Origin: Lacunisphaera sp.
GTDB taxonomy: Bacteria; Verrucomicrobiota; Verrucomicrobiia; Opitutales; Opitutaceae
Assembly: GCA_029945855.1 (NCBI GenBank)
Contig: JAQSDJ010000065.1
Location: 1-38,945, forward strand
Direction: 5' to 3'
Length of the DNA: 38,945 nt
Part shown: positions 4,958 to 37,231 of the stretch, piece after piece
Layout: each line of letters starts with the position of its first letter
Position numbering within the stretch: the stretch's first letter is position 1
Translations under genes and position numbers: made by a program
Notes under the pieces: generated by a model
Told to the model about the DNA's origin: nothing
Databases searched by the model: none
Seen by the model: the letters and a program-made list of their open reading frames with translations, nothing else

Positions 4958-4964
4958 AGTGGAG

Positions 4965-5046
4965 GCAGCAAAACAGAGGCAGGCTTTGTAGTTTGTGGCA
5001 TGAGAAGCAGCAAAACAGGGTCAGGCTTTGCAGTTTGCGGCATGAG
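4965..5046. repeat. Tandem duplication, 42-nt period, two copies
   Basis: Copies at 4965-5004 and 5007-5046 match at 36 of 40 positions (both start GCAGCAAAACAG and end GGCATGAG). The repeat lies in the gap upstream of the toxin-antitoxin pair. It could be a duplicated operator or an insertion scar; nothing in it looks coding. Confidence 0.85.
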
Positions 5047-20266: not shown

Positions 20267-21150
20267 GCCGTCTTGCGGGTCGCTGGGTTTTTTCCGAGCG
20301 CGGGATGGTTTTTCTCGGCGGCCTGATACCAACGATAGAAGCTGATCCCGAACGCGATCAGGGCGACGGACATCCCGATCAGCTTCATCATGGCGCCGGC
20401 CAGCAATTGGTCGTTTGCGGCGGTGAGGCTCGTGATGCGCGGGGCAAACTCGTAGGTCGGGTAGAGCACGTCCTGCGAGAACGTGATGTAGGCGAAGACC
20501 GGCGTCATGCCGATGATGACCGCCACGAGGTAGAGCATCTGCCAGGCGTAGCTGGCGGGGGGGAATTCCTTCGAGGGACTCAGCAGCGGCCACCAGAAAA
20601 ACAGGGCGGCGCCGAAGAACATGAAATGCTCGGCGATGTGCACGGGGCGGTTCTGCAGCGCCAGGTCGTAGAAGGCCGGCATGTGCCAGACCGTGATCAC
20701 CGTGATGTAAAGGACCCCGCAGACGACCGGATGAGTGAGGACGTGCAGGATCGGGCGCAGGCCGGGTCGGCCGGTGAGCGGCCGCACGAGCCAGTCGGGC
20801 AGGCCGAGCAGGAAAAGGATGGCGGCCGGGTAGATGATGAGCTGGTGCTGCAGCATGTGCGCGCTGAGCAGGAAGCGTTCGGCGATCTGGTCCAGCGGCG
20901 AGCCGACGGCCAGGTAGAAGCAGACCAGCGCCAGGTAGAACCGGATGGCATGGCCGCGTGGGTAGGCAGCATCCGCCATCACCGTTGCGGGCTGCTGCCC
21001 GCCCGGTGTCTGTCCCCGGTTCTCGCTCTGCGAAACCAAGGCAGACAAACGTGAACGCAGCGGACCGGTCATGACGGCATACAGCCAGCCGAGAAAGATG
21101 AGCCCGCCGATGAGGAAGGGTTCATTGTGCCAGTGGGTCCAGTCGATCAT
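20263..21150 (-). CDS. ctaG: Cytochrome c oxidase assembly protein CtaG (caa3 type)
   Basis: This 295-residue polytopic membrane protein belongs to the caa3_CtaG family, needed for assembly or copper loading of caa3 oxidases in Gram-positives; it is unrelated to Cox11. About seven membrane segments and the signatures HMLQHQLIIYPAAILFLLG, WHMPAFYDLAL and HFMFFGAALFFWWPLL are visible. It closes the ctaCDEF operon on the minus strand. Its last codons run into a palindromic repeat, so the C-terminal tail (KNPATRKTA) may partly derive from the repeat. Confidence 0.88.
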   Translation of the reverse strand: MIDWTHWHNEPFLIGGLIFLGWLYAVMTGPLRSRLSALVSQSENRGQTPGGQQPATVMADAAYPRGHAIRFYLALVCFYLAVGSPLDQIAERFLLSAHMLQHQLIIYPAAILFLLGLPDWLVRPLTGRPGLRPILHVLTHPVVCGVLYITVITVWHMPAFYDLALQNRPVHIAEHFMFFGAALFFWWPLLSPSKEFPPASYAWQMLYLVAVIIGMTPVFAYITFSQDVLYPTYEFAPRITSLTAANDQLLAGAMMKLIGMSVALIAFGISFYRWYQAAEKNHPALGKNPATRKTA

Positions 21151-21162
21151 GAGCAGAAAAAA

Positions 21163-21183
21163 GGCGGGGTCAGCGACCCCGCC
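21163..21183 (-). repeat. Covarying hairpin, family B copy 1 (terminator-like)
   Basis: GGCGGGGTC and GACCCCGCC form a 9-bp perfect stem around AGC. On the minus strand it is followed by TTTTTT, so it may attenuate transcription between ctaF and ctaG. It shares 27 of 29 bases, including the flank CTACAGTC, with 30403-30431. Confidence 0.8.
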
Positions 21184-21209
21184 CTACAGTCGGCAACTTG
21201 CCGCAGACG

Positions 21210-21572
21210 TCAACCCACCGCCAGACGGGCGAAGTCGAGCGCGGCGGAGCTCAGCGGCTTGCTGGCGTCGGCGCCGAAGAGGTGGAGCAGCGCCCACATC
21301 GTGCCGCCGGCGAGCACCAGACCGATGAAGAACAGAATGGTGCAAAACACCTTGTCCCAGCGCAGGTGCATGAAGAAGAAGATGACGAACAGGAACTTGA
21401 TGGCGGAGAGCAGGAGGAGCGTGGTGACCACGAACCATTTCGCGATGGGCAGGTAGACCAGCACGACCTCGACGCCGGTGATGACGGCGAGGATCATCGC
21501 GATCGCGATGTAGAAGTGGAACTTGCTCGGTTCGTGGTGGCCGGCGTCGGCGGTGGTGGCGGGGGCGGACAT
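21210..21572 (-). CDS. ctaF: caa3 oxidase subunit IV
   Basis: A 120-residue protein with a His-bearing hydrophilic start and three membrane segments (residues 20-42, 48-70, 77-97). The pattern KFLFVIFFFMHLRWD is typical of the small prokaryotic subunit IV (COX4_pro) of caa3 and bo3 oxidases. It stabilises the complex rather than carrying cofactors. It follows ctaE after a 145-bp repeat-filled gap. On the mRNA strand the start is preceded by CTTCTTCCTCCC and no Shine-Dalgarno sequence. Confidence 0.87.
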   Translation of the reverse strand: MSAPATTADAGHHEPSKFHFYIAIAMILAVITGVEVVLVYLPIAKWFVVTTLLLLSAIKFLFVIFFFMHLRWDKVFCTILFFIGLVLAGGTMWALLHLFGADASKPLSSAALDFARLAVG

Positions 21573-21717
21573 GGGAGGAAGAAGTAGCGGGTAGTGAGTA
21601 GGAAGAGAAGACAGGGCAAGAGGCGAGGTGTGAGATGGTAGGGGAAAAGCGTGGAGCGGCTGAGGTCGTCGGTTTGTTATGCTCGCTACACGCTACTCGA
21701 TGCTCACTCCTTCTCGC
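21573..21717. repeat. Low-complexity inverted spacer between ctaE and ctaF
   Basis: One side is purine-rich with GTAGCGGGTAGTGAGTAGG. The other is pyrimidine-rich with CTACACGCTACTCGATGC and CTCACTCCTTCTCGCTCAC, roughly inverse. It is similar in style to the two GAGTGA spacers flanking ctaD but not a clear copy. Confidence 0.55.
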
Positions 21718-22551
21718 TCACAGGTATTCCAGCAGGTAGACGGCGGTGAAGATGATGATCCAGACGATGTCGACGAAGTGCCAGTAGAGGCCGATGGACT
21801 CGACATCGATGGCGTTCTGCTCGCCGAAATCGACGGCGCCACCGGTGCGGGCGAACCAGAACACGGCGGCCAGGGCCGCGGCGCCGGCCGCGTAGGGCTT
21901 GGCGTGGGCCGAGAGCAACTCACTGATGTTGGCGCCGTAGACGGCTTGGATCAGGTCCGGGACGAACCAGATGAAGGACACGCCCATCACGACGCACACG
22001 GCCGCGAGGTGGACGATGTTCTTCAGGAGGCCGCCGCCGGTCGCGGGCTTGAAGGTGCGGACATACATCATGCCGAGGAGCAGCACGCCGATGGCGACGT
22101 GGGTGCCGTGGGTGCCGGTGAGGGTGTAGAAGGTGGAGCCGAAGATGCTGTTCGAGAGCGTCATCTTCTGGGCATGCACAAAGTGGTCGAACTCGTAGAC
22201 CTGGCCGCCGAGGAAGATGCAGCCGAAGAACATCGTGCCGAGCAGCATGGTGCGGGTGCTCTTCAGGTTGCCGTGCTGGATGGCGTTCACCGCGAGGGCC
22301 ATGAGCAGCGAGGACATGAGCAAAATGAACGTCGAGAAGGACGTGAGCTCGATGTTGAAGATCTGCGTGGGGATGGCGTTGCCCGGGGGCGGGTTGAGCC
22401 GGTAGACGAGATGCGTCGAGATCAGCGCGCCGAAGAACATGCAGTCCGAGGCGAGGAAGGCCCACCAGAGGAGCTTCTTGTTCGGAATGCCCGTCGTGGT
22501 GGTGTGATCGTGATGGTGGTCGATGTGACCGGTGGCCGCGTGGCTGCTCAT
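21718..22551 (-). CDS. ctaE: caa3 oxidase subunit III with internal insertion
   Basis: Subunit III of the haem-copper oxidase, 277 residues, membrane-embedded and without metal ligands. LLWWAFLASDCMFFGALISTH, FYTLTGTHGTHVAIGVLLL and the closing YWHFVDIVWIIIFTAVYLL are the family signatures. In ordinary subunit III the last two are joined by a short loop. Here about 80 residues (168-247) intervene, with hydrophobic stretches at 178-200 and 220-234 that could be two additional membrane helices. A His-rich start (HIDHHHDH) is also present. On the mRNA strand CACCTCCTC directly precedes the ATG. Confidence 0.93.
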   Translation of the reverse strand: MSSHAATGHIDHHHDHTTTTGIPNKKLLWWAFLASDCMFFGALISTHLVYRLNPPPGNAIPTQIFNIELTSFSTFILLMSSLLMALAVNAIQHGNLKSTRTMLLGTMFFGCIFLGGQVYEFDHFVHAQKMTLSNSIFGSTFYTLTGTHGTHVAIGVLLLGMMYVRTFKPATGGGLLKNIVHLAAVCVVMGVSFIWFVPDLIQAVYGANISELLSAHAKPYAAGAAALAAVFWFARTGGAVDFGEQNAIDVESIGLYWHFVDIVWIIIFTAVYLLEYL

Positions 22552-22596
22552 GAGGAGGTGAAAGTGAGAGTGAGAGGGAGAGGGAAGAGTGGGCGG

Positions 22597-22684
22597 AAAA
22601 GAGTGAGAGTGAAAGTAAGAGTGGAGGAAAGAGGGTGAGGTTTTGCTGGTGTTGGTCAGGACACTTTCACTTTCACTCTCCCTT
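22597..22684. repeat. GAGTGA repeat, copy 1 (between ctaD and ctaE)
   Basis: The block from GAGTGAGAGTGAAAGT through GTTGGTCAGGACACTTTC to the C/T-rich end is repeated at 24730-24823 with few differences. Its two ends are inverse of one another (GAGAGTGAAAG and CTTTCACTCTC), so it can fold. Confidence 0.85.
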
Positions 22685-22693
22685 GATACTTCC

Positions 22694-24697
22694 TCAGTGC
22701 CCGCCGCGGGACTCGGTGACCTTGCCGTCGGCGGCGATGTGGAGGTGGTAGCCGGCCGGGCCCTCGAGCGCCCACAGGTAGAGGGCGGAGGCCATGATGA
22801 CGCCGCCGGTGATGGCGAGCGGCAGGTGGGAGGCGAGCACCTGGTTGCCGAACATCACCACCGGGTGGTGCAGCTGGGCGAAGTTGTAGGCGCCGACCAG
22901 CAGGCCGAAGGCGGAGAACAGCGGATACCAGGACTGGTCGGGCATGTGAATGCCGCCGTGGGCCTCCTCGGCCTTGATGTGCTCGGCCTTCTCGGCCGCG
23001 ATTTCGTCCTTGTGGGTCTTCTCATACCACCAGGCATCGCGGGCGTGGACGGTCGGGATGGCCGCGAAGTTATGCTCGGGCGGCGGCGAGGGAATGGACC
23101 ACTCGAGGGTGCGGGCGTCCCACGGGTCGTTGCCGCAGACCTTGCCCTTGAACAGGCTCCAGACCAGCACGGCGAAGTAGGTGAAGATGCCGACGCCGAG
23201 CAGGTAGGCGCCCCAGGTGGCGAACATGTTGCCCTCGTTCCAGCCCATGTTGGAATCGTAGGTCCAGGTGCGGCGCGGCATGCCGTTGAGGCCGAGGAAA
23301 TGCATCGGGAAGAACGTGCAGTTGAAGCCGACGAAGATGAGCCAGAAGGAGACCTTGCCCCAGACCTCGGGCACCATCCGGCCGAAGAACTTCGGGAACC
23401 AGAAATGGATGGCCGCCAGCAGCGCAAAGGTGGCGCCGCCGATAAGGACGTAATGGAAGTGGGCGATGACGAAGTAGCTGTCCTGCTGCTGGGCGTCGGC
23501 CGGGGCGGCGGCGTGCATGACGCCGGAGAAGCCGCCGAGCATGAACATCCAGATGAAGCCGAGGGCGAACATCATCGGCACGCGGGTCGTGATCTGGCCG
23601 CCCCAGAGGGTGCCGATCCAGTTGAAGATCTTGACGCCGGTCGGCACCGCGATGGCCATGGTGGCGATGGAGAAGGCCGCGGTGGCGACCGTGCCCATGC
23701 CGGTGGTGAACATGTGGTGGCTCCAGACGCCGAAGCCGATGAAGCCGATCGCCACGCCGGAGAAGACCACGATCGGGTAGCCGAAGAGCGGCTTGCGGGC
23801 GAAGGTCGGCAGGATTTCCGACACGTAGCCCATCGGCGGGAGGATGAGGATGTAGACCTCGGGGTGGCCGAAAACCCAGAAGAGATGCTGCCAGAGGATC
23901 GGCTGGCCGCCGCCCGAGACCTCGAAGAAGTTGGTGCCGAAATTGCGGTCCATCATCACCTCGACCAGCGCGATGGCGATGGCGGGCAGCGCGAGGATGA
24001 GCAGAAAACTGGTGACGAGGGCCATCCAGGTGAACACCGGCAGGCGCATCATGGTCAGGCCCGGGGCCCGGAGGTTGATGATGGTGACGATGAAGTTCAG
24101 CGAGGCCACGATCGAGGAGAGGCCCAGCACCTGCAGGCCGAGCACCCAGAGGTCGGTGGAGATGTCGGGGGAGAAGGCCTTGGAGGTCAGCGGGGCGTAG
24201 CCGAACCAGCCGATGTCGGGGGCGCCGCCGAAATTCCAACTGGGGAAGAAGTGCGAGAGCCAGCCGACGTTCAGCAAGATGGCGCCCACGACCCAGGTCC
24301 AGAGGGAGAAGGCGTTGAGGCGGGGGAAGGCGACGTCGCGGGCGCCGATCTGCAGCGGGATGAGCAGGTTGAAGAACGCGGCGTTCAGCGGCATGACCGC
24401 GAGGAAGATCATCGTGGTGCCGTGCATCGTGAACAGCTCGTTGTAGAGCTGCGCGCTGATGAAGCGGTTGTTCGGCACCATGAGCTGGGTGCGGATCATG
24501 AGGGCCTCGAGGCCCCCGATGAGGAAGAACAGGATGGCGAAGCCGCCGTAGAGCATGCCGATCTTCTTGTGATCGACGGTGGTGAGCCAGCTGAGGAGAC
24601 CGGTCTTGGCCGTCGGGCGGGCCATCAGGTCGAACGTCGCCTTGGCGGGCGGATGACCGGCGCCGGTGAAGGCGTGCTTAACTAATGCTTCTGCCAT
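22694..24697 (-). CDS. ctaD: caa3 oxidase subunit I
   Basis: This catalytic subunit reduces O2 and pumps protons. In 667 residues it shows H92 (haem a), H278 and Y282 in GHPEVYI (CuB and the cross-linked Tyr, with E280 typical of the A1 type), H327-H328 (CuB), and H413 and H415 in HFHYVL (haems a3 and a). The D-channel loop is NAAFFNLLIPLQIGARD. After the usual core an extra C-terminal part (about 560-667) adds a hydrophilic segment and two membrane helices, as in Bacillus and Thermus caa3 enzymes where subunit I carries extra helices. The gene is flanked on both sides by copies of one repeat. CACTCCTT directly precedes the ATG on the mRNA. Confidence 0.97.
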   Translation of the reverse strand: MAEALVKHAFTGAGHPPAKATFDLMARPTAKTGLLSWLTTVDHKKIGMLYGGFAILFFLIGGLEALMIRTQLMVPNNRFISAQLYNELFTMHGTTMIFLAVMPLNAAFFNLLIPLQIGARDVAFPRLNAFSLWTWVVGAILLNVGWLSHFFPSWNFGGAPDIGWFGYAPLTSKAFSPDISTDLWVLGLQVLGLSSIVASLNFIVTIINLRAPGLTMMRLPVFTWMALVTSFLLILALPAIAIALVEVMMDRNFGTNFFEVSGGGQPILWQHLFWVFGHPEVYILILPPMGYVSEILPTFARKPLFGYPIVVFSGVAIGFIGFGVWSHHMFTTGMGTVATAAFSIATMAIAVPTGVKIFNWIGTLWGGQITTRVPMMFALGFIWMFMLGGFSGVMHAAAPADAQQQDSYFVIAHFHYVLIGGATFALLAAIHFWFPKFFGRMVPEVWGKVSFWLIFVGFNCTFFPMHFLGLNGMPRRTWTYDSNMGWNEGNMFATWGAYLLGVGIFTYFAVLVWSLFKGKVCGNDPWDARTLEWSIPSPPPEHNFAAIPTVHARDAWWYEKTHKDEIAAEKAEHIKAEEAHGGIHMPDQSWYPLFSAFGLLVGAYNFAQLHHPVVMFGNQVLASHLPLAITGGVIMASALYLWALEGPAGYHLHIAADGKVTESRGGH

Positions 24698-24729
24698 AAG
24701 GAGTGAGAGTGAAAGTGAAAGTGAGAGTG

Positions 24730-24823
24730 AAAAGAGTGAGAGTGAAAGTGAGCGTGGAGGAAAGGGGGTGGTGTTCTGCTGGTTGTTGGTCAGGACACTT
24801 TCACTTTCATTCTCACTTTTCCC
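24730..24823. repeat. GAGTGA repeat, copy 2 (between ctaC and ctaD)
   Basis: Near-copy of 22597-22684, including GTTGGTCAGGACACTTTC. The gap before it (24698-24729) has additional GTGAGAGTGAAA units. The block reaches the ctaC stop codon. Confidence 0.85.
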
Positions 24824-26110
24824 TTATTTCAGGCTGTGCAGGTAGGCGACGAGCGCGTCGATCTCCGGGTCGGTGAGCTGGAACTTGGCGGTGCCGGTGT
24901 CGACGTCGACGTAGCCGCCGTTGAACATCTTGTTGCCGGGCTTGTAGTGGTTCGGGTCCTTGATCCAGGCGTGCATGCGCTCGGGGGTGTTTTCGAGGAC
25001 GCCGGCGGCGATCGTGGTGCGGGCGCCGACGCGGGTCAGGTCGGGGCCGGTGATGCCGATGCCCTCGTGACCGCGGACGGCGTGGCAGGAAATGCAGGTC
25101 TTGTCGGCGAAAAGCTTGCGGCCGGTCGCGATGAGCTGGGCATTCTCGCCGGGCTCCGGTTTCTGCATGTCCTGCCAGGCGGCCAGCGGGTTGGCGTCGA
25201 AGCCGGGCGAGGCGGCCAGGGCGGAGCCGGCCTCGAACTTCAGGCTGGCGAATTTCGCGGTCGGGGTGGCGGCGGCCGCGGCCAGTGATTCGGCCGTGAC
25301 GGTGCGGGCGGCTTGCTTCTGATTTTCCAGCCACCGGGCGTATTCCGGGGCGGAGAGGGCGATGACGCGGAAGCGCATGATGGCGTGCGACTCGCCGCAA
25401 TACTCGGCGCACTGGCCGTAGAAATAACCGGGCTTGTCGGCCTTGAACCACAGGAAATTGCCGCGGTTGGGCATCATGTCCACCTTGCCGGCCAGCTTCG
25501 GGATCCAGAAGCTGTGGATGACGTCCACCGTGCGCAGCTGCACGCGGACCGGGACGCCGGCCGGGACGACCAGTTCATTCCCCGTGACGAGCGGAGCCTC
25601 GCCGCCGGTCGGGAGCGGCACCATCTCGGAGGGATACTCGAACTTGAACCACCACTGGTAACCCGTGGCGGTGACTTCCATGGCGTTGGCCTTCTCGTCC
25701 TCCGGGACATCATGGGTATACCAGATGCCACGCAGCGTGGGGATGGCGATGATGACGAGGAGCAGGACGGAGCCGGCGATCAGGCCGATTTCCACGAAGG
25801 GATTGCCATGCCCCTGCGGCGGCGGCGTGGCGTGCTCGTCCGCCTCGGTCTTCGCGCGGAACTTGAACTGTGCGTAGGCCAGCACGGCACCGACCACGAT
25901 GAAAATGAAGGTGGTCACCCAGACCGTCACCATGAAGAGATCCCACTGCGCCTTGGCAACCGGGCCGGCGCTGACCATGGTCGATTGCGGGCCGCTGAGG
26001 TTGAAGATCTCGGTCAGTTTGCAGCCGGACAGGAAGATCAGGCTGAGCCCGGCGAACAGGGCGGTCGTGAGGCGCGAAAATGTGCGGGGGGCGGAGCGTG
26101 GGCTGGTCAT
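24824..26110 (-). CDS. ctaC: caa3 oxidase subunit II fused to cytochrome c
   Basis: Subunit II accepts electrons at the CuA centre. From the ATG at 26110 it has 428 residues: a lipoprotein signal (FLSGC30), two membrane helices (about 58-80 and 107-127), the aromatic YQWWFKFEYP, and CuA ligands H199, C234, E236, C238, H242 and M245 in GQCAEYCGESHAIM. A covalently joined cytochrome c domain follows with haem motif CISCH (339-343) and a late Met in NKMFNGG. The fused cytochrome is what defines caa3 oxidases. Longer in-frame starts exist, but only 26110 places a proper signal peptide at the N-terminus. It leads the ctaCDEFG operon. Confidence 0.96.
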   Translation of the reverse strand: MTSPRSAPRTFSRLTTALFAGLSLIFLSGCKLTEIFNLSGPQSTMVSAGPVAKAQWDLFMVTVWVTTFIFIVVGAVLAYAQFKFRAKTEADEHATPPPQGHGNPFVEIGLIAGSVLLLVIIAIPTLRGIWYTHDVPEDEKANAMEVTATGYQWWFKFEYPSEMVPLPTGGEAPLVTGNELVVPAGVPVRVQLRTVDVIHSFWIPKLAGKVDMMPNRGNFLWFKADKPGYFYGQCAEYCGESHAIMRFRVIALSAPEYARWLENQKQAARTVTAESLAAAAATPTAKFASLKFEAGSALAASPGFDANPLAAWQDMQKPEPGENAQLIATGRKLFADKTCISCHAVRGHEGIGITGPDLTRVGARTTIAAGVLENTPERMHAWIKDPNHYKPGNKMFNGGYVDVDTGTAKFQLTDPEIDALVAYLHSLK

Positions 26111-26815: not shown

Positions 26816-26840
26816 GCGTTCCCGACCGCCTGATATTTCA

Positions 26841-26866
26841 AAGCCGGACCCGCGGGTCCGGCTTTT
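26841..26866 (+). terminator. Terminator after azurin
   Basis: A perfect 11-bp stem (AAGCCGGACCC with GGGTCCGGCTT) with a 2-nt loop, followed by T residues. It is symmetric enough to act on both strands. Confidence 0.88.
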
Positions 26867-26871
26867 CATTT

Positions 26872-26932
26872 GGTAGGGGCGCTTGCCCTCAAGCGCCCTT
26901 GGGCCGGGCCGTTGAGGGCAACGGCCCCTACC
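26872..26932. repeat. Palindromic element at the azurin/DUF420 convergent junction
   Basis: GGTAGGGGC and GCCCCTACC arms enclose inner arms TTGCCCTCAA and TTGAGGGCAA. A related word (GCGTTGAGGGCAACGC) lies at 29334-29349. Confidence 0.85.
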
Positions 26933-26938
26933 GGGCAA

Positions 26939-31333: not shown

Positions 31334-31339
31334 GCGCAA

Positions 31340-31394
31340 GGTGGAGCGCGACCTCCGGGCGCGCTTCGAACGCGTCCGGAGGCCGCGTTCCACC
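31340..31394. repeat. Palindromic element at a convergent junction
   Basis: GGTGGA...CCTCCGG...CGCG and CGCG...CCGGAGG...TCCACC form an interrupted stem nearly filling the 65-bp gap between the HxHP gene and the MBL gene. It could terminate both. Confidence 0.82.
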
Positions 31395-31398
31395 GGCC

Positions 31399-34717: not shown

Positions 34718-37231
34718 TCAGTGCGGGCCGCGCAGCGGATCGGCCCCATGGCCCCAGAGTCGGGTCGCGCCGAGCACCAGCAAGGCCAGCATGAACCAAT
34801 GGCTCGGGGCGCCGCCCCCACCACTCCCGCTGCCGGAAGAAGCGGGTGGCGGCGGTGGGACCGGCGCCGCGGTGACCGTCAGCGTGGCCTTGCTGCTGGT
34901 GACGCTGCCGAGGGCGTTGGTCACCCCGACGGTGTAATCGCCGGCGTCGGAGGTGCGGACGGCGGTCAGGGTGAGCGTGCTGCCGGTGGCGCCGCTGATG
35001 GCCGTGTTGCCAAGAGACCATTGGTAAGTGGGTGCGGGGTTGCTGCCGGCTGTCACGCTGAAGGTGACATTGTTGCCGGATACCACGGTCTGGCCCTGGG
35101 GGTGGGCGGTGATGACCGGCCCGGTGGCGAGCAGGCCTTTGCGGACGGTCGTCCCGCTGCTCACATAGAGGGCGCCGGTCGCATCCACCGCGATGCCAGA
35201 CGGAAAATAAAACCGGGCGTCACGTCCTGCGCCGTCCGTGCTTCCGGGTGTTTCCGCCAGGCCGGCGACCGTGGTCACGGCTCCTTGCGGCGTCACCTTG
35301 CGCACGGTCTGATTGTAGGATTCGGCGATGAACAGATTGCCGGAGGTGTCCGCGGCCACACTGCAGGGGTTGTGAAAGCGGGCGGATGTCACGTTGCCGT
35401 CAACGTAGCCATGCTCCGCGCCGGCGAGCGTGGTGACGCTGCCGGAAGGCAGGATTTTTCGGATCCGGGCGATGGCTGGACCGTCAGGAGGCTCGGTCAC
35501 GTAGACGATGCCGCCGGCATCGACGGTGATGCCATAAGGGGCAGTGAAGCGGGCGTTGCCGCCGATGCCATCGGCGCTCCCCATCTGGAGGGCGGAGCCG
35601 GCCAGGGTCGTCACGTCGCCGGCGGGGGTAATTTTCCGGATGATTTCGTTGGAGGTGTCGGTCACGTAGAGATTGCCAGCTGCGTCCACCGCGATGCCGC
35701 GCGGATACCAGAACTGGGCGGCAGCGCCCTGACCATCCAGATAGCCATAGGCACCGGCGGTGCCGGCGAAGGTGCTGACGTCACCGGTCGGCGAGACGCG
35801 CCGGATCGTGTGGTTGCCGGAGTCGGCGACAAACACCGCGCCCGCCGCATCCACCGCAATTCCAGCCGGCGCCGAGAAACGGGCGGCCGTCCCGGTGCCG
35901 TCGGCGGAGCCGGATTCGCCGGGTGCGCCGGCGAGCGTGGTGACCACACCCGCGGGAGTGATCTTGCGGATGCAGTGGGCGGAGGAGTCGGCGACGTAGA
36001 TGTTGCCGTTGGCATCGACGGCGGTGCCGGTCGGCGCGGTGAAACGGGCGGCGGCGCCCGTGCCGTCGAGCGTGCCGGTCGCGGTTTCCAGCGCCACGCC
36101 GGCGAACGTCGTCACCGTGCCAGTTGTGCTGAGCCGGCGGATGTCATTGTTGCCCGTGTCGGCGACGTAGAGCGTGCCGTTCCGGTCGGAGGCGAGGGCC
36201 AGTGGGAAACCGAATTTGGCAGAAACGGCCGGGCCGTCGCTGCCGCCGATCGTGCCGTCACCGGCCACCGTGGCGAACGTGCCGTCGGCGGGCGAATACC
36301 GGAAAAGATTGTAGCCGCCGGCGACCAGGAGCCGGCCGCCGGCGTCGAAGGCGAGCGAGCTGGCGCCGCTGCGGGTCACGCGGCCGCCGAAGTAACGGTA
36401 GTCGGAGGTCTGCCACAGGTTCGTGCGGGTGCCGTCCGGGGTGATCCGAGTCACGAACCCGACATACTGGAAGTAGTTGTCCGTCCAGTTCACGGCGTGG
36501 GTCTGCTCGTTGCGGAATTCAAACCGGGAAACGTAGACATTGTTGGCGGCGTCCACGGCGATGGCGCCGTAGGCCACGGACAGCACACTGCCGAGGTCGC
36601 CGGTTTCCGGGAACCAGACGCCGATGGCGAAGGTGGTGACGGCCCCTGCGGGGGTGATCTTGCGGACCGCGTGGTTGCCGGCCTCGGTGACGTAGAGGTT
36701 GCCGGCGGCGTCCAGGGCGAGTTTGCGCGGGCGATCGAAGCGGGCGGCGCCGCCGGTGCCGTCGGTGTTGCCCGTCACTCCGGCCAGTCCGGCGAGGGTG
36801 GTGACTACGCCGGCCGGGGTGATCTTGCGGATGGTGTGGTTGCCGGTGTCGGTGATGTAGAGGTTGGCGGCGGCATCGGCGACGATGCCCTGCGGACTGT
36901 CAAAGCGGGCGGCGTCCCCCGTGCCGTCGGCGCTGCCTGGCAGGCCGGCCGTGCCGGCAAAGGTTGTGACCGCCCCGGCCGGGGTGATCTTGCGGACGGT
37001 GTGGTTGCCCTCGTCGACGATGAAAATATTACCCGCTAAGTCGGTCGCGATGTCCTTGGGGCTGTAGAAGCGGGCGGCGGCGCCCGTGCCGTCGGTGCTG
37101 CCGATGCTCGAGGTGCCGGCCAGCGTGGTGAAGACGTAGGGGGTCGCGTAGTCCGCGGCCCCCCGGGCGCAGAGTGCGGCGGCCAGGGACAGGATGAGCG
37201 TGCAGGGCAGGGCCAGGACAGATGTTTTCAT
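34718..37231 (-). CDS. Surface NHL-repeat beta-propeller protein with Ig domain and GGGGAPSxWF anchor
   Basis: An 837-residue exported protein. After a signal peptide (residues 1-25) come about ten NHL repeats with the recurring pattern DGTGAAARF...P.GIAVDA.GNLYV.D.GNHTIRKITPAG.VTT.AG, which fold as beta propellers and usually bind ligands or proteins. Residues about 695-775 form an Ig-like domain (HPQGQTVVSGNNVTFSVTA, YQW, DAGDYTVGVTN). Then follow a Pro/Gly/Ser linker and the terminal SGSGGGGAPSHWFMLALLVLG, a hydrophobic helix and short basic tail. This tripartite end resembles PEP-CTERM or MYXO-CTERM sorting signals but with its own motif. The ligand is unknown. Confidence 0.9.
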   Translation of the reverse strand: MKTSVLALPCTLILSLAAALCARGAADYATPYVFTTLAGTSSIGSTDGTGAAARFYSPKDIATDLAGNIFIVDEGNHTVRKITPAGAVTTFAGTAGLPGSADGTGDAARFDSPQGIVADAAANLYITDTGNHTIRKITPAGVVTTLAGLAGVTGNTDGTGGAARFDRPRKLALDAAGNLYVTEAGNHAVRKITPAGAVTTFAIGVWFPETGDLGSVLSVAYGAIAVDAANNVYVSRFEFRNEQTHAVNWTDNYFQYVGFVTRITPDGTRTNLWQTSDYRYFGGRVTRSGASSLAFDAGGRLLVAGGYNLFRYSPADGTFATVAGDGTIGGSDGPAVSAKFGFPLALASDRNGTLYVADTGNNDIRRLSTTGTVTTFAGVALETATGTLDGTGAAARFTAPTGTAVDANGNIYVADSSAHCIRKITPAGVVTTLAGAPGESGSADGTGTAARFSAPAGIAVDAAGAVFVADSGNHTIRRVSPTGDVSTFAGTAGAYGYLDGQGAAAQFWYPRGIAVDAAGNLYVTDTSNEIIRKITPAGDVTTLAGSALQMGSADGIGGNARFTAPYGITVDAGGIVYVTEPPDGPAIARIRKILPSGSVTTLAGAEHGYVDGNVTSARFHNPCSVAADTSGNLFIAESYNQTVRKVTPQGAVTTVAGLAETPGSTDGAGRDARFYFPSGIAVDATGALYVSSGTTVRKGLLATGPVITAHPQGQTVVSGNNVTFSVTAGSNPAPTYQWSLGNTAISGATGSTLTLTAVRTSDAGDYTVGVTNALGSVTSSKATLTVTAAPVPPPPPASSGSGSGGGGAPSHWFMLALLVLGATRLWGHGADPLRGPH

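Follow-up and report, generated by a model that had tools for sequence, protein, structure and literature searches.

CU-rich leaders without Shine-Dalgarno sequences and intergenic inverted repeats in a verrucomicrobial cta oxidase operon

The cta genes and their leaders

The stretch of DNA analyzed here (the window) is 38,945 nucleotides from Lacunisphaera sp., a member of the Opitutaceae (assembly GCA_029945855.1, contig JAQSDJ010000065.1, positions 1 to 38,945). Its minus strand carries oxidase genes whose products match the Pfam families COX2 plus cytochrome c (ctaC), COX1 (ctaD), COX3 (ctaE), COX4_pro (ctaF), and Caa3_CtaG (ctaG); the closest named relatives by ctaD are Lacunisphaera and other Opitutaceae, Opitutia, and Verrucomicrobia metagenome-assembled genomes, at no more than 92% identity. 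The start codons of ctaD, ctaE, and ctaF are each directly preceded by a CU-rich stretch without a Shine-Dalgarno (SD) sequence, and the gaps in which these leaders lie contain inverted repeats. As read from the sequence, the CU-rich, SD-free leaders are a real feature and mostly an explicable one. The genes, leaders, and repeats, in the direction of transcription, are the following:

24824..26110, minus strand: ctaC (coxB), with a C-terminal cytochrome c, the gene upstream of the first gap (Pfam COX2, 4e-21; Cytochrom_C, 5e-12)
24796..24817, minus strand: purine arm (GTGARA words) of the 22-nt inverted repeat I3, 6 nt downstream of the ctaC stop and complementary at 95% to 24702-24723
24731..24756, minus strand: second pyrimidine word array of the ctaC/ctaD gap; direct repeat family D3
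24702..24723, minus strand: pyrimidine arm, which stops 4 nt short of the ctaD ATG and makes up most of the CU-rich ctaD leader; I3 and D3; 5' distance 6, loop 72, 3' distance 4
22694..24697, minus strand: ctaD (coxA), Pfam COX1; leader 24698-24717, 85% pyrimidine, without SD
22662..22683, minus strand: purine arm of inverted repeat I6, downstream of the ctaD stop; complementarity to 22602-22623 of 86%
22602..22623, minus strand: pyrimidine arm of I6 in the ctaD/ctaE gap; not flush, its end being 50 nt from the ctaE ATG (3' distance 53 when the arm is drawn slightly differently)
22553..22578, minus strand: second array of pyrimidine words, immediately upstream of the ctaE ATG; direct repeat family D3
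21718..22551, minus strand: ctaE (coxC), Pfam COX3; leader 22552-22571, 85% pyrimidine, without SD
21683..21710, minus strand: purine heptamer array (GGAGTGA GCATCGA GTAGCGT GTAGCGA) after the ctaE stop; array pair 21584-21710; word division read from the sequence
21584..21601, minus strand: pyrimidine array of heptamers, CTACTCACTACCCGCTAC, an exact pattern match 11 nt upstream of the ctaF ATG
21210..21572, minus strand: ctaF, Pfam COX4_pro; leader 21573-21592, 85% pyrimidine, without SD

The minus-strand leaders read ...CACTCTCACTCCTT-ATG for ctaD (24697), ...CACTTTCACCTCCTC-ATG for ctaE (22551), and ...CTACTTCTTCCTCCC-ATG for ctaF (21572), in agreement with the CU-rich, SD-free stretches reported in a preliminary description of this DNA. 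Statistics for the rest of the genome come from a sample of 1,317,538 of its 5,008,298 nt, on contigs that were picked arbitrarily and are often small, in which 975 genes were predicted and 368 starts were kept, namely those whose 5'-most ATG is unambiguous and whose neighbor is known; an earlier, smaller sample gave the same picture of SD use and leaders. The sample is 65.5% GC and C is common in its gaps, which lends something to the suspicion that the three starts are misassigned or that their leaders are the chance composition of a GC-rich genome. The start assignment nevertheless looks right: in all three genes the named ATG is the first possible start in frame (the first ATG, GTG, or TTG downstream of an in-frame stop), and tblastn alignments to relatives begin at residue 1 at most loci (33 of 39 for ctaD, 32 of 35 for ctaE, and 21 of 32 for ctaF), the first codons being similar in the closer relatives. 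Moreover, a pyrimidine content of at least 85% is found in 10.1% of 228 unambiguous leaders (gap at least 40 nt) but in only 1.3% of 158 control 20-mers taken at −80..−61, and misassignment or chance is very improbable. The same comparison implies that the cta leaders exceed the background yet do not stand apart among the leaders of their own genome. CU-rich, SD-free leaders are common across this genome and the sampled relatives rather than peculiar to the three oxidase genes as first supposed, and the tally of 20-base leaders, while confirming that leaders are CU-richer than background, places those of the cta genes in the top 10% of a genome-wide trend.

Leader composition and Shine-Dalgarno use

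At codirectional starts the pyrimidine fraction rises from 0.52 at −60..−51 to 0.71 at −5..−1, where it is chiefly C (0.53, with T at 0.19), and G makes up 18.1% of the leaders versus 26.8% of the segment at −80..−61. The predicted unpaired probability over −20..+5 is 0.575, versus 0.531 with shuffled leaders (n = 226, p = 1.6e-8), and 0.472 once the upstream piece is in place (n = 156). The leaders of this genome are thus predicted to be less structured around the AUG than the control, with the exception of genes behind purine-first repeats (those whose purine arm is transcribed first), to which we return below. The likeness of the cta leaders to the anti-SD sequence, also pointed out in the preliminary description, is there to be read but reflects composition only: CTCC, CCTC, TCCT, or CCTT occurs in 64 of 144 codirectional leaders (44%; 39% when shuffled) and in 14 of 84 divergent ones (17%; 30% when shuffled). 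On these frequencies CCUCC is rejected as a specific signal.

The 3' end of the 16S rRNA is canonical (...GGCTGGATCACCTCCTTT) and keeps CCUCC (GGATCACCTCCTTT). SD use was counted as SD-like tetramers at −20..−4, that is, as words and not as the pairing energies of an earlier survey (PMC10783764). At gaps of at least 40 nt such tetramers precede 11 of 144 codirectional starts (8%; 6% when shuffled) and 11 of 84 divergent starts (13%; 11% when shuffled). Five other genomes of the family have them at 3 of 75 codirectional starts, 0 of 16 divergent starts, and 8 of 32 starts with gaps below 15 nt, and the cta loci of relatives at 2 of 66 codirectional starts, with 1 of 24 in a further count. By this count most genes of this genome that stand apart from their upstream neighbor appear to be without a textbook ribosome-binding sequence. 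The class "SD-scarce with conserved CCUCC" has already been published, with the verrucomicrobial strain IMCC26134 named in it (PMC10783764), and the present genome has both of its marks, a tail that is kept and few leaders able to pair with it at gaps of at least 40 nt. An AAGGAG lies just 3' of the ctaE stop (21683-21717), SD-like but about 140 nt ahead of the ctaF start, a distance that the hairpin might conceivably shorten.

CU-rich leaders without a recognizable SD precede ctaD, ctaE, and ctaF in most closer relatives too. The mean pyrimidine fraction is 0.74 before ctaD (n = 39), 0.70 before ctaE (n = 35), and 0.74 before ctaF (n = 32), with 0, 1, and 0 SD-like leaders, respectively, in 20-nt windows that reach into the upstream gene at short gaps (at most 15 nt for 15 of 32 ctaE/ctaF gaps and at most 13 nt for seven ctaC/ctaD gaps). 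The corresponding values are 0.61 before ctaC (n = 38, three SD-like) and 0.62 before ctaG (n = 31, three SD-like). One relative, L007, has a native CU-rich leader, CCCTTTCCTCCC-ATG, in a gap of 33 nt.

It might be supposed that such leaders are sites at which ribosomal protein S1, or a cold-shock-type protein, recruits the 30S subunit, the pyrimidine tracts having been selected for binding. The rpsA gene is intact (636 bits above the curated cut-off, profile positions 10-516 of 516), pyrimidine content is highest beside the start, and S1 is among three candidates named for the intergenic TAACTGA repeats that precede starts in Beggiatoaceae (PMC4679880). The base enriched here, however, is C (0.53 at −5..−1 of codirectional starts) and not T (only 0.19), and CCUCC-like words do not go beyond composition. 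Sites bound by S1 are generally regarded as rich in U or in A and U, with which an enrichment of C is at odds. A U-rich bias is mentioned for S1 sites in one report (PMC5397173). Low G and openness account for the same data. Recruitment of the 30S subunit to the cta leaders by S1 is possible but, in our estimate, unlikely.

Inverted repeats in the cta gaps and elsewhere in the genome

The pyrimidine stretches before the three cta genes form the ends of what their complementarity marks as intergenic inverted repeats, with the purine arm after the stop and the pyrimidine arm towards the next start, a connection that the preliminary description had missed. In the ctaC/ctaD gap the arms pair at 21 of 22 positions and the predicted fold of the gap is −38.8 kcal/mol; the pair in the ctaD/ctaE gap is related to it and has a similar loop, and the ctaE/ctaF gap contains a looser pair, of a heptamer family, whose arms fall below the arm-score cut. 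The ctaF/ctaG gap (21140-21215) has a strong terminator-like hairpin (the stretch folds at −33.5 kcal/mol) and then a T-run, with the ctaG ATG almost immediately after it.

In the genome sample, inverted repeats with a score of at least 13 occur in 80 of 521 gaps of 45-450 nt, versus 2.5 expected from shuffles; many resemble repetitive extragenic palindromic (REP) elements, and two of the 80 are masked (N) runs, gaps with N being excluded from the 45-mer pairing test and mismatch counts given below. At least three word families can be discerned, besides compact REP-like palindromes, which appear to be a separate kind. Because matches overlap inside arrays, the following counts are of words and not of elements. 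GTAGYGR heptamers give 151 overlapping matches with one mismatch allowed, and CTGAANNN octamers 87, versus 0 for the reversed pattern in both cases; GTGARA hexamers give 25 with one mismatch allowed, and for these the reversed-pattern control is uninformative because the pattern is identical when read backwards. All 22 array pairs of the three families, at 19 distinct places, are purine-first. At 13 of the 19 places neither outer end is more than 13 nt from a neighboring start or stop codon; one place is inside a predicted gene and one is without a left neighbor, and purine-first array pairs are also present in one convergent and two divergent gaps. A fourth family, of TCGTTC/GAGAAC words, has the pyrimidine arm first in all of its 12 pairs, at 11 places, and varies in its position within gaps (e.g., G000:C97:20893-20953); it also occurs in the cta gaps of relatives L008, L009, and L018. 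A further purine-first family, of ACAGGAG/AACGGAG words, is flush with stop and start at G000:C102:11917-12014 and C84:6723-6811. Stop codons occur inside repeat words.

Loops, compared by eye, are unrelated between copies save for two copies in the cta operon, and this unshared internal sequence, the cta pair excepted, speaks against copies of a transposon or miniature inverted-repeat transposable element. The exact heptamer is present in 21 of 288 genomes of the phylum, namely 15 of 25 in the Opitutaceae, where a genome has as many as 119 matches, and 6 of 263 beyond that family, with 1-3 matches; among 120 genomes of the family, 38 contain the octamer and 17 the hexamer.

Compact REP-like palindromes lie in convergent gaps of the window at 26816-26938 (GGTAGGGGCGCTTGCCC...) and 31334-31398 (GGTGGAGCGCG...), and similar ones in other sampled gaps. 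Elsewhere in the window, two tandem 42-nt copies, 88% alike and each ending in ATGA, lie between predicted genes at 4962-5045, and a 165-nt repeat occurs eight times within a long open frame at 35264-37120, the other copies being 60-76% like the reference copy.

Possible pairing of the arms in the mRNA

A role for these hairpins as functional RNA devices, in which a purine arm within the footprint of the terminating ribosome gates the next start and keeps the oxidase subunits in step, has several points in its favor. Purine-first codirectional elements lie at a median of 5 nt from the stop and 13 nt from the start (n = 36), versus 16 and 51 nt for mixed-arm REP-like elements (n = 61). The stop-side and start-side 45-mers of codirectional gaps pair at a mean of −26.4 kcal/mol versus −22.1 when permuted (n = 181, REP-like palindromes included), an advantage that is absent from divergent gaps (means of −26.8 versus −26.6, n = 60) and from convergent ones (−28.0 versus −27.9, n = 37). 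Masking −15..+15 around the ctaC stop is predicted to raise the unpaired fraction of the ctaD leader from 0.12 to 0.51. On the other hand, closeness to both codons is expected of any element that fills a short gap, the word families are patchy among relatives, and purine-first pairs stand in one convergent and two divergent gaps, where such coupling is impossible.

The mismatches between arms bear on this more directly. Selection for pairing in the mRNA should favor G.U over A.C on the sense strand, the two otherwise being equal. Flush elements were defined by a 5' distance of at most 16, a 3' distance of at most 20, and a loop of at least 20, limits chosen after this genome had been viewed and applied unchanged to relatives; since the 20 stretches from relatives were picked around heptamer hits, the numbers of elements in them do not represent rates. 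The 36 flush codirectional elements, some of which may share descent, contain 69 A.C and 23 G.U mismatches and lean towards A.C in 26 cases and G.U in four (sign p 6e-5). Purine-first elements (26 of the 36) account for 59:19 of these and the other ten for 10:4; by source, the A.C:G.U ratio is 35:14 in this genome (18 elements, sign p 0.057), 14:6 in five relatives (10, p 0.070), and 20:3 in the cta loci (8, p 0.008). Controls are near even, at 71:72 in 61 mixed-arm codirectional elements and 43:51 in 43 divergent or convergent ones. Two counts do not fit an effect confined to flush elements: the pooled codirectional elements of this genome show no skew (86:73, n = 66), and non-flush codirectional elements of the five relatives also lean towards A.C (42:20, n = 20).

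An excess of 69 A.C over 23 G.U is the reverse of what selection for mRNA pairing would leave, and a selected mRNA hairpin is not supported. The arms do not look as if they were held for pairing; instead C in the leader, A after the stop, or both appear to have been raised and the stem loosened, the direction of a mismatch being silent on which arm changed. A loosened stem would suit a model in which openness of the leader is what matters. Hairpins acting as RNA devices are improbable. As to the cta operon itself, pairing of the arms would shut the ctaD start unless a ribosome terminating on ctaC opened the stem, and such opening would couple ctaD to ctaC translation; this is the weakest part of the explanation. 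For genes behind purine-first repeats, masking the upstream stop raises predicted mean openness from 0.43 to 0.57, but it changed little at three places (C118, 0.21 to 0.26; C74, 0.40 to 0.40; C102, 0.45 to 0.44), and the ctaE leader is predicted to be 0.72 open and lies outside the best stem. Coupling of ctaD to ctaC through the stem is thus possible, though the folding predictions support it weakly.

Proposed initiation without Shine-Dalgarno pairing

The CU-rich leaders are, we think with fair confidence, the ribosome-binding region typical of an SD-scarce lineage, here lengthened by repeats. Most likely, translation would begin at unstructured leaders without SD sequences, and the gaps would tolerate repeats: the 30S subunit would find the cta AUGs through the unfolded leader and not through SD pairing, and repeats would have been gained in gaps and then tolerated, probably because the downstream arm is itself a G-poor leader. 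In the published model of SD-independent initiation a local absence of mRNA structure suffices (PMC3121790), and the unknown mode of initiation that had been considered for these genes is not needed. The cta gaps of relatives fit element gain and loss, being short without repeats and long with differing families. Median lengths without and with a detected repeat, detection being possible only at gaps of at least 40 nt, are 32 (n = 34) and 146 nt (n = 5) for ctaC/ctaD, 26 (n = 33) and 116 nt (n = 2) for ctaD/ctaE, and 10 (n = 26) and 95 nt (n = 6) for ctaE/ctaF. The 13 repeats comprise eight purine-first, three pyrimidine-first, and two mixed, and their families vary by species. This pattern fits elements that would have come and gone in gaps whose native leaders were CU-rich beforehand.

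Several observations weigh against this explanation. The detection limit just given bears on the gap lengths, and ten cta gaps without a detected repeat measure 82-107 nt. Genes were called with a home-made codon-score script. In distant ctaD loci (at most 70% identity) 11 of 12 leaders are only 0.40-0.60 pyrimidine, the high values being those of closer relatives, and at seven of these loci the gap is at most 13 nt, so that the 20-nt window is partly inside ctaC. SD-like tetramers precede 5 of 32 starts at gaps of 15-39 nt (16%; 5% when shuffled) and 30 of 108 at gaps below 15 nt (28%; 14% when shuffled); SD use, though scarce, is then not absent; some persists where genes lie close together or overlap, and it may be retained there for re-initiation. 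Of 15 divergent starts in the cta loci of relatives (L007-L044, L055), 5 have SD-like tetramers (9% when shuffled), possibly a single conserved gene counted repeatedly. Finally, genes behind purine-first repeats are predicted to be less open (mean 0.43) than with the gap shuffled (0.47, n = 12), and their own gaps close ctaD (0.12 open versus 0.55 shuffled) and ctaF (0.46 versus 0.73); it would thus be too simple to regard the repeats as a source of good leaders.

Of the repeats we would say, tentatively, that Opitutaceae may have an undescribed class of gap-filling inverted repeats, with iterated 6-8-nt purine words after a stop and their complements before the next start. These would originate or be inserted where two genes meet, would show fast turnover from species to species, and would evolve with an asymmetry that follows the direction of transcription because the downstream arm is an SD-free ribosome landing site.

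What began as a curiosity at three genes becomes a wider rule of SD-scarce, G-poor leaders in a GC-rich verrucomicrobial lineage, which offers a system distinct from Bacteroidia for studying how starts are found without SD sequences. The repeats are natural experiments, since the same operon gap is empty or has one of several word families among relatives, and the asymmetry of A.C over G.U makes it possible to examine, from sequence alone, whether selection favors the pairing of an intergenic hairpin in the mRNA.

Comparison with known systems

The SD-free initiation proposed here is of a known kind. As in the unstructured-leader initiation described by others (PMC3121790), leaders around the AUG are less folded than the control, but here this is a prediction and the ctaD leader can be folded by a repeat arm. 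The SD-scarce genomes with conserved CCUCC (PMC10783764) likewise have a canonical 16S tail and few SD:anti-SD pairings; the present genome differs in its C-rich, G-poor leaders, which are extended by repeats in one operon.

Bacteroidia, in which ribosomal protein bS21 hides the anti-SD tail so that SD motifs are useless and lost, also retain the anti-SD and largely lack SD sequences (PMC9976891). A similar mechanism might be invoked here, as bS21 is encoded in 59 of 61 genomes of the family, this one included, and a canonical tail again accompanies scarce SD sequences. Many Bacteroidia and Chlorobia, however, have an unusually strong SD before rpsU itself (PMC9976891), and an SD-like tetramer at −20..−4 is found in 0 of 31 rpsU leaders (this genome and 30 relatives), which speaks against bS21 control of the Bacteroidia type, as does the SD excess that persists at starts with gaps below 15 nt. 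We consider control by bS21 doubtful.

For the stop-to-start word repeats, a literature search covering top-ranked titles and abstract openings, with few subscription papers, found no earlier description, and their nearest published relatives found are REPs (PMC3733652) and the TAACTGA heptamers (PMC4679880). GTAG-tagged REP elements are reported to be highly enriched in O. terrae (PMC3733652), and the family resemblance includes many intergenic inverted repeats, the presence of Y1 transposases, and REP ends that often supply stop codons; six matches to Y1_Tnp (PF01797) in the present genome (G000) are candidate movers of REP-like elements. GTAG REPs are small palindromes, 20-40 bp long and tagged at one end with GTAG (PMC3733652). 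The word repeats have wider loops (21-84 nt in 18 flush copies of this genome) that are unrelated among copies, their arms are built from words of 6-8 nt with the purine arm always first, and GTAG is found in only one of the three word families (F2), where nearly every word repeats it; they do not belong to that class. The mixed-arm REP-like repeats of this genome also sit farther from the start (median 51 nt) than the word repeats. The TAACTGA heptamers of Beggiatoaceae are, like the repeats described here, iterated short words a few nucleotides before starts for which a role in translation has been proposed, but they consist of one word in direct repeats (PMC4679880), and the Opitutaceae repeats consist of several word families in inverted pairs.

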